NCBI RefSeq assembly: GCF_003123745.1
Contig: NZ_QETB01000005.1
Coordinates: forward strand, 124,001 to 188,000
Length of the DNA: 64,000 nucleotides
Direction of reading: 5' to 3'
From: Ancrocorticia populi
GTDB lineage: Bacteria; Actinomycetota; Actinomycetes; Actinomycetales; Actinomycetaceae
Shown: positions 7,887 to 9,792 of the stretch, piece by piece
Layout: the number at the start of each line of letters is the position of its first letter
Position numbering within the stretch: the first letter of the stretch is position 1
Program-made: the position numbers and the translations under genes
Notes under the pieces: model-generated
Database searches by the model: none
The model's input: the letters and a program-made list of their open reading frames with translations, nothing else
Told to the model about the DNA's origin: nothing

Positions 7887-8417
7887 GTGCAACTAACCGT
7901 TGCGATTATCGGGGCGCCCCACGGGCTCAAGGGAGAAGTCCGCTTAGACGTCCGGACAGATTCGCCAGACAAGCGCCTAGCCGTTGGCTCCATGCTGGAG
8001 ACGGAGCCTCCAGAATTTGGCCCCTTGACCGTTGAGCGCACACGTACCCACAAGGGCAGCCTCCATGTCATCTTCGAGGAGTGTCACGATCGAAGCGGGG
8101 CTGAGGCCTTAGCCGGTACCAAGCTGGTCATCGAAACAGACGAGGAAGATGGTAGCGAGGATAATGCTTGGTACGCCCACGAACTGAAGGGATTAGAGGT
8201 ACTAGACCCTGACGGTTACACGCTCGGCGAGGTAATTGGTCTGGAGCCGATGCCAGCTCAAGATCTCCTTGTAGTTCGTGAACCGGATGGAATCATCACC
8301 CGCGTTCCGTTCGTCAAAGACATCGTGACCGAGGTTGATCTGGACGATGAGTGCGTGGTGGTTGATGCGCCGGCCGGCCTGTTTAGCGAGGAAGAGATGG
8401 ACATTGATGAGATTTGA
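7887..8417 (+). CDS. rimM: Ribosome maturation factor RimM
   Basis: Assists late assembly of the 30S head by binding S19. The 176-residue protein has the N-terminal RimM beta-barrel (TVAIIGAPHGLKGEVRL at 3-19) and a C-terminal PRC-type barrel (about 95-170) containing WYAHELKGLEV and LLVVREPDG. The start is GTG at 7887 with ACAGGAG 6 bp upstream. Its end overlaps the trmD start by 11 bp, so the two are translationally coupled. Confidence 0.95.
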   Translation: MQLTVAIIGAPHGLKGEVRLDVRTDSPDKRLAVGSMLETEPPEFGPLTVERTRTHKGSLHVIFEECHDRSGAEALAGTKLVIETDEEDGSEDNAWYAHELKGLEVLDPDGYTLGEVIGLEPMPAQDLLVVREPDGIITRVPFVKDIVTEVDLDDECVVVDAPAGLFSEEEMDIDEI

Positions 8418-9792
8418 CATCATCTCCGTATTTCCTGAGTTCTTCCGCGTCCTAGATCTCTCGCTGATCGGGAAAGCGCAGGAGCGCGGGATCCTTTCGA
8501 TCGGCTGCCACGATCTGCGGGATTGGACGGACGATCCACACAGAACCGTGGACGATACCCCGGCCGGTGGCGGAGCGGGAATGGTGATGCGCCCAGATGT
8601 ATGGGGCAAGGCAATTGATGCGGTCATGGAGCCAGATGGCGGCGAAAACGTCGTCGTCGGCCCAACCGTACTCGCGATACCAACCCCATCTGGCTACCCA
8701 CTCACTCAACGCACATGCGAACGGATCGCGCGCGAGGCCGAGCATGTGATCGTGGCCTGCGGGCGCTACGAGGGAATCGACGCACGGGTGGCCGAACATT
8801 ATGGGGCCAAGGGCGTCCGGGTGATCGAGTATTCACTTGGTGACTACGTGCTTAACGGTGGCGAGGTGGCTGCGGTGGCACTCGTAGAGGCCGTGGGGCG
8901 GCTTCTGCCGGGGATGGTGGGCAATCCAGAATCCCTTGTAGAGGAATCCCACGGTGCGGCCGGGCTTCTCGAATATCCCGTCTATACCCGGCCCGTCTCG
9001 TGGCGGGACGCGCATATCCCCGAGGTTCTGCTCTCCGGAGATCACGGAGCAGCCGCCAGATGGCGGAAGGACCGAGCCCTCGAAAAGACCGCCACGCGGC
9101 GGCCCGATATGATCCCGGTGATTGATGCAGAAGGGCTTGATAAGAAGGATCGTGCAACACTTTCGCGGCTCGGCTACCTCACCCCTCGCGGGGCGGAGCA
9201 TCCGGTGAAGGTTCATGCGCGAGTGGCGGAGCACAAGGATTTGTGTGGACTGACTGACTTAGCGGCCCGAACCTTCCCGGATGCGGCGCCAGCCTATCTG
9301 CGAAGAGAATCCGTGGAGAGTTTTATCGGGAAGAATCTCTCGCTCGAATCATTCCGGGGCTATCTAGCCGACGAACACTGTCAGGTGTGTGTGCTCGATG
9401 CCGGGCAGGAGGGCCTGATTGGCTATACCTTGGCGATTGTGCCTGAAGCGGATGGTGTTGCGGGGCTCGATGAGGGGGCTCCCGTTGATGCCCTCATCGA
9501 TGGCGCCGAACGCCGTGGCCCGTTGACGGAACTCTCCAAGTTCTACATTGATCGGGACTGGCGCGGAACCGGCGGTGCCCAGATGCTCTGGGATTACGCG
9601 ATTGCCGAGCTGGCCCAAGCATGCGATCAATGGGACAATCCGGGTGTTTTCCTAGGAACCAACGCGGCAAACCGGCGGGCACGCCACGCCTACCGCAAGC
9701 TCGGTTTTGAGGAAGTAGGCGAGCGCCGATTCATGGTAGGTGAGCAAGACAACCACGATATTGTTTTTGCTCGAGGATTGCGTATGCCATAA
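8407..9792 (+). CDS. trmD: tRNA (guanine37-N1)-methyltransferase TrmD fused to a C-terminal GNAT acetyltransferase
   Basis: TrmD methylates G37 of tRNAs reading CNN codons and prevents +1 frameshifting. Residues 1 to about 262 form a complete TrmD: RFDIISVFPEFF, PAGGGAGMVM, the AdoMet trefoil-knot segment EYSLGDYVLNGGE near residue 140, and the C-terminal DRATLSRLGYL domain. The frame continues with no stop into about 195 residues of a GNAT domain, with ELSKFYIDRDWRGTGGAQML (acetyl-CoA loop RGTGGA) and NRRARHAYRKLGFEEVGER. The whole is 461 aa against about 240-270 for ordinary TrmD. The ATG at 8407 fits the family N-terminus. The substrate of the acetyltransferase half is unknown. Confidence 0.93.
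   Translation: MRFDIISVFPEFFRVLDLSLIGKAQERGILSIGCHDLRDWTDDPHRTVDDTPAGGGAGMVMRPDVWGKAIDAVMEPDGGENVVVGPTVLAIPTPSGYPLTQRTCERIAREAEHVIVACGRYEGIDARVAEHYGAKGVRVIEYSLGDYVLNGGEVAAVALVEAVGRLLPGMVGNPESLVEESHGAAGLLEYPVYTRPVSWRDAHIPEVLLSGDHGAAARWRKDRALEKTATRRPDMIPVIDAEGLDKKDRATLSRLGYLTPRGAEHPVKVHARVAEHKDLCGLTDLAARTFPDAAPAYLRRESVESFIGKNLSLESFRGYLADEHCQVCVLDAGQEGLIGYTLAIVPEADGVAGLDEGAPVDALIDGAERRGPLTELSKFYIDRDWRGTGGAQMLWDYAIAELAQACDQWDNPGVFLGTNAANRRARHAYRKLGFEEVGERRFMVGEQDNHDIVFARGLRMP

Follow-up and report, generated by a model that had tools for sequence, protein, structure and literature searches.

The tRNA methyltransferase TrmD of Ancrocorticia populi is joined in frame to a GNAT acetyltransferase, and this fusion is real and old. 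In the window, by which we mean the whole stretch of 64,000 nucleotides analyzed here, the fused gene lies on the forward strand at 8407-9792: it starts with ATG at 8407, continues for 461 codons with no internal stop, and ends with a stop codon at 9790..9792. The first-pass annotation had described a TrmD prolonged by about 195 codons of GNAT; the single uninterrupted frame, in which both domains are matched, bears this out, the length given for the extension is accurate, and both domains had been named correctly. Judging from family membership, relatives, and conserved residues, we think there is an even chance that the product is one protein carrying two enzymes. The gene stands between rimM (7887..8417, +; Pfam RimM), which overlaps its start by 11 bases, and rplS, encoding ribosomal protein L19 (9927..10271, +; Pfam Ribosomal_L19), the next gene downstream. 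The gene order, read from Pfam and, for trmD, from Pfam and NCBIfam together, is ribosomal protein S16, RimM, TrmD, L19, signal peptidase, and RNase HII.

The SPOUT m1G37 tRNA methyltransferase half occupies residues 1-236 (8407..9114, +). The Pfam family tRNA_m1G_MT matches residues 22-233 with 172 bits, and the curated NCBIfam models NF000648 (TrmD; 277.8 bits over residues 1-236, cut-off 220) and TIGR00088 (213.4 bits, cut-off 195) both exceed their thresholds, so that residues 1-236 form an end-to-end member of the family. TrmD entries of the PDB match this half with E values down to 4e-72, and the 50 Foldseek matches listed for it are all TrmD by title. A search of the 2.65-Mb host genome gave no other match to TrmD. 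All 31 fused proteins compared have the same knot loop, G119-D125 (GRYEGID), and an acidic residue is kept at the position of the catalytic aspartate, which we take to be D169 of E. coli. Here the window protein has glutamate (residue 180, bases 8944-8946), a difference seen in the comparison with the M. abscessus TrmD of the PDB. We considered this change as a sign of altered TrmD activity and rejected it: glutamate occupies the position in 97/97 fused and 26/26 unfused rows of the order (duplicates included, the fused rows containing repeats of the same genome), and PMC8643618 reports that a TrmD with D169E has activity equivalent to wild type. It looks like a harmless swap common to the sampled members of the order. 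Compared with TrmD as modeled by NF000648 and TIGR00088, then, the window protein shares the full-length match and the knot loop and differs in this glutamate, as do the unfused rows, and in some 195 extra residues that form the GNAT domain. From family membership and the retained active-site residues, we infer that this half is an ordinary TrmD, which would methylate G37 of tRNA with S-adenosylmethionine. One other fused protein (L017) has an extra stretch within TrmD, after residue 74.

The two halves are connected by residues 237-266 (9115..9204, +), which resemble the C-terminal tail of unfused TrmDs. Among the unfused TrmD loci of the order, 13 of 20 were judged by eye to finish with a tail of the form LDxxxLDxxDxxxLxxLGW; the end of one locus fell outside the fetched stretch. 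In the long-linker fusions, the linker consists largely of this natural tail of TrmD. Across 96 rows, 84 linkers are 26-49 residues long (median 31) and 12 are of 3-6 residues, all of these in family f13. In these short-linker fusions (L025, L030-L032, L151-L156, L158, L162) the TrmD tail is missing and GNAT begins 3-6 residues past the TrmD domain. In the structural model of the window protein, the linker has block pLDDT values of 91-97. Because the full-length model reaches a pTM of 0.63 and is weak over residues 41-60 and 171-190, we claim no orientation of the domains.

The GNAT half (residues ~267-461; 9205..9789, +) belongs to the GNAT superfamily by two lines of evidence: Acetyltransf_1 (PF00583) matches residues 316-434 with 34.5 bits, above its cut-off of 20.7, and the predicted structure (pLDDT 94.9) matches GNAT structures. 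When this half was placed against the RimI and TmcA families, as the first-pass annotation had proposed, it grouped instead with PaiA and LcGNAT. Its profile finds 8osp (LcGNAT) at E 1e-27, 1tiq (PaiA of B. subtilis) at 2e-24, and 4e2a at 1e-18, whereas structures of RimI and Ard1 score 4e-7 or weaker. Foldseek likewise ranks 8osp and 1tiq first. In VIA-align these two give Z 20.5 (rmsd 2.3 over 172 residues) and Z 20.2 (rmsd 2.5 over 173), respectively, and 1wk4, 3fnc, 3f0a, and 3fix form a near-tie at Z 19.7-19.9, with RimI (5isv) at 16.9. Because four other GNATs lie within 1 Z, the fold alone says little, and it is the sequence ranking that carries the grouping. The score against the RimI model TIGR01575 is 18.9 bits, for a cut-off of 86.4, and that against the PaiA equivalog NF053587 is 31.8 bits, for a cut-off of 250. 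TmcA, the tRNA-Met cytidine acetyltransferase, combines a TmcA-type GNAT with helicase domains; the Pfam search, which matched seven families at E values of 1 or lower, found none of these. By these comparisons, the GNAT half belongs to a sister subfamily of the small-amine acetyltransferase PaiA, and is neither RimI nor TmcA nor PaiA itself.

The residues expected of a working acetyltransferase are also present. The glycines of the acetyl-CoA loop, G387 and G389, are found in 24 and 29 of 31 fused proteins, respectively. E375, Y380, and Y429 align with Glu92, Tyr97, and Tyr142 of LcGNAT, which matter by mutation according to PMC10416765. Both tyrosines are kept in 54/54 fused and 48/48 free rows; the glutamate is kept in 47/54 fused and 44/48 free rows, with tyrosine in its place in 7 of the 54. 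Both halves of the protein thus retain their catalytic residues, and the GNAT looks intact. LcGNAT of Lactobacillus curiae, a canavanine N-acetyltransferase, is the best match by both profile and structure and has equivalents of all three residues, but identity is only 22-23%, and LcGNAT is free-standing and, according to PMC10416765, associated with a guanidine riboswitch. PaiA, a spermidine/spermine N1-acetyltransferase, shares the modeled fold and the aligned glutamate and two tyrosines; it differs in sequence (20-21% identity, and a score far under the PaiA cut-off), in lacking the TrmD partner, and in the signatures 'ELSK' and 'FPxACPP', which are the window GNAT's own. With RimI, the ribosomal protein S18-alanine acetyltransferase, the fused half has the GNAT fold in common. 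Because the signatures 'ELSKxY' and 'FPxACPP' differ from both PaiA and LcGNAT, the substrate is probably not theirs. One fused protein (L009) contains long extra stretches within the GNAT domain.

Other genes of the host bear on the choice of substrate. The host carries a separate PaiA-like acetyltransferase (L002:799-1746, +; C1:1003495-1003995), a closer relative of PaiA: it scores 186 bits against NF053587, still under the cut-off of 250, whereas the fused GNAT scores 31.8. Spermidine synthase had no match in the host and exceeded its cut-off in 2 of 44 genomes, as against 10 of 14 control genomes. Because of this closer relative and the missing spermidine synthase match, plain polyamine acetylation is doubtful.

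The fusion is widespread. TrmD and GNAT share one open frame in 32 of 37 sampled Actinomycetaceae genomes, the host included, as counted from single-protein search rows, and in the order sample they are fused in 18/18 genomes of family f13 and 2/2 of family f12. It is thus present in most sampled genera of Actinomycetaceae, and two other families of the same order have it as well. This recurrence in many genomes also led us to reject a frameshift or assembly artifact as its source. In one genome (G006), which at first looked split, each half sits at the end of a contig, and it was counted as neither fused nor split. Four Actinomycetaceae genomes (G013, G018, G024, G029) lack a GNAT of the fused subfamily at E 1e-10. 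The TrmD of G018 nevertheless has a 167-residue tail (L040:1884-2384, -) with no detectable GNAT or family match, which by eye seems to resemble an eroded GNAT; the tail of the G029 TrmD gives GNAT matches, all of them below threshold.

We also scanned named genomes with a single peptide pattern, LAA[RE][TN]FPDA, taken from fused rows. Among the named loci fetched by their GNAT half, 55 of 56 are fused, the exception being Luteimicrobium album. Because the FPDA of the pattern favors fused copies (free copies have L in place of its D in 46/48 rows), this count tells who carries the fusion, not how often the domain is fused rather than free. By their titles, which also serve to identify the family of the 37 genomes, the 56 loci are mostly from Actinomycetaceae, including Actinomyces, Schaalia, Arcanobacterium, Actinobaculum, Trueperella, Flaviflexus, Winkia, and others; loci with other genus names are L123 (Xylanimonas), L127 (Sanguibacter), and L132 (Luteimicrobium).

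Within the class the GNAT subfamily is patchy. At 1e-8, its profile matches 84 of 246 genomes of the class, strongly (over 120 bits) in 31 of them, the host included, and the strong class copies fetched as loci (L066-L094) are free, with no TrmD in frame. In a sample of the phylum, 11/198 genomes match at 1e-20. Of 44 chosen genomes, 37 match at E 1e-10 with one strong copy each, fused or free (two of these copies are in two pieces, and that of G006 is cut by contig ends), and the seven that do not match are four Actinomycetaceae, two f8, and one f15. No second strong match was found in the 37 family genomes, save the split one of G006, in a single-protein search that could miss a divergent copy; in the class sample, G351 shows two strong matches, of which one touches the edge of a contig. 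The genomes checked thus carry the GNAT either fused or on its own, and almost never in both forms. Fused and free forms keep the same signature residues, which suggests that they share the same chemistry and that this chemistry can therefore probably proceed without TrmD. In ten loci of free copies, inspected by eye from the starts of open reading frames (L034 lies near a contig end and L089 is poorly called), no shared neighbor gene was recognized. A scan of genome contigs with the GNAT domain alone as query gave no match, nor did one of phage records. With the free homolog L070 as query, 28 plasmid records matched, at a best identity of 49%; among the 15 of these listed, the matching region is annotated as GNAT in 7 and has no feature in 6, and 2 records are unannotated.

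The reading that we favor, and that we regard as about equally likely to be right or wrong, is a two-activity enzyme: TrmD would methylate G37, the GNAT would acetylate a small amine, and the tether would provide expression and perhaps location. By analogy with its closest characterized relatives, and given its conserved catalytic residues, the GNAT half would move an acetyl group from acetyl-CoA onto the primary amine of a small molecule. The fused-or-free pattern suggests that the tether may mainly supply constant, growth-linked expression of the GNAT from the rimM-trmD-rplS neighborhood; it might also place the GNAT near tRNA and ribosomes. We came across no published activity for a protein of this subfamily. 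Several observations count against this reading, namely the tyrosine at E375 in 7/54 fused rows, the signatures unlike those of PaiA and LcGNAT, and the closer PaiA relative in the host. Retention of the fusion in 32/37 family genomes also counts against it, in that the tether could matter for translation.

The first-pass annotation had suggested a second modification of tRNA or ribosome, or protein acetylation coupled to translation. The fusion itself speaks for this and we found no support beyond it, the GNAT being PaiA-like, far under the RimI cut-off, and often free-standing; such a role is possible but not favored. TmcA and the toxins that acetylate aminoacyl-tRNA are GNATs that act on tRNA or aminoacyl-tRNA, and the fused GNAT might similarly modify tRNA itself or the amino group of an aminoacyl-tRNA, with TrmD bringing it to the substrate. 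The physical tie to a tRNA enzyme throughout those 32 genomes argues for this, as do profile matches, though weak ones, to KacT (5zgn, 23.9 bits) and entries like it, but these lie at E ~3e-4, compared with 1e-27 for LcGNAT; no TmcA-type Pfam match appears at E up to 1, and the subfamily often stands free, without TrmD in the same frame, so that we consider this reading unlikely. A mild acidity of the GNAT halves (net charge -3 as the median of 86 fused rows, and -9 in the window protein) is little argument against tRNA binding, because the TrmD halves, which would be expected to bind tRNA, are more acidic still (median -10). A broader version, to which we give slightly less credence, is that the GNAT is a tRNA-side enzyme on the TrmD dimer, where it would either acetylate something on or beside the tRNA (a nucleoside, a polyamine bound to tRNA, or the amino acid that an aminoacyl-tRNA carries) or sense acetyl-CoA and adjust m1G37 accordingly; if true, carbon status would be tied to reading-frame maintenance in Actinomycetaceae. 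More doubtful again is acetylation of a ribosomal protein or nascent N terminus, which would couple the acetylation of proteins to their translation. The genes of ribosomal proteins S16 and L19 lie nearby, and RimI is the second-best NCBIfam match of several free and fused homologs, yet the score of 18.9 bits is far below the RimI cut-off of 86.4, and elsewhere in the host, between genes read as TsaB and TsaD, there is a stronger candidate for RimI, although at 69 bits it too falls short of that cut-off.

Two further alternatives would leave the joined GNAT with less to do. It might be mainly a regulatory or structural appendage that binds acetyl-CoA or stabilizes TrmD, with no catalysis. The high confidence with which linker and GNAT are modeled would fit this, and so would the tails of G018 and G029, the former kept at 167 residues without a GNAT match; a scaffold, however, would not need both catalytic tyrosines, invariant in all 54 fused rows, and unfused TrmDs of the same family manage without a GNAT, which makes this proposal as improbable as direct action on tRNA. 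Alternatively, the fusion might be neutral, the GNAT keeping its old job and the joining having no function past coexpression. The fused-or-free pattern and the absence of the GNAT from four family genomes are consistent with neutrality, as are the two linker types (~31 and 3-6 residues) and the faster evolution of the GNAT halves, which, over 31 fused proteins, show a mean pairwise identity of 40% as against 66% for the TrmD halves. Most of the family has, however, kept the fusion, with a linker of steady length, which makes some advantage likely, and we rate neutrality the least probable of the readings considered.

TrmD is important for bacterial growth and is a studied inhibitor target, as titles of PDB entries indicate. 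Because it is a two-domain protein in named loci of Actinomyces, Arcanobacterium, Trueperella, and Schaalia, TrmD structures and inhibitors from other bacteria cover only half of the protein there. And because free and fused forms occur in related families, they offer a natural test of whether anything is gained by joining an acetyltransferase to a tRNA methyltransferase. The proteins themselves are already in public genomes. We found no description of a TrmD-GNAT fusion in titles and abstract openings of the open-licence literature, although an earlier mention elsewhere is possible, and the portions of PMC1282579 and PMC1829167 consulted do not mention one.

Finally, we propose that a free-standing actinobacterial GNAT gene was appended to the natural C-terminal tail of TrmD, once or several times, among the ancestors of Actinomycetaceae and closely related families. 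A GNAT tree of 103 rows, for which every fourth named fused locus was kept and seven duplicate loci and rows of <100 bits were dropped, needs 5 changes of the label 'free'. Approximately unbiased (AU) tests on 95 rows, a set from which eight further rows were dropped, did not reject a single clade of all fused rows (p 0.385), a clade of f13 (p 0.388), or one of f1 and f12 (p 0.698), the tree with this last constraint scoring higher. In a TrmD tree of 71 rows, for which the named loci were thinned to every sixth and six loci as well as rows of <250 bits were set aside, unfused f8 is nested among the fused rows, with many forks poorly supported.
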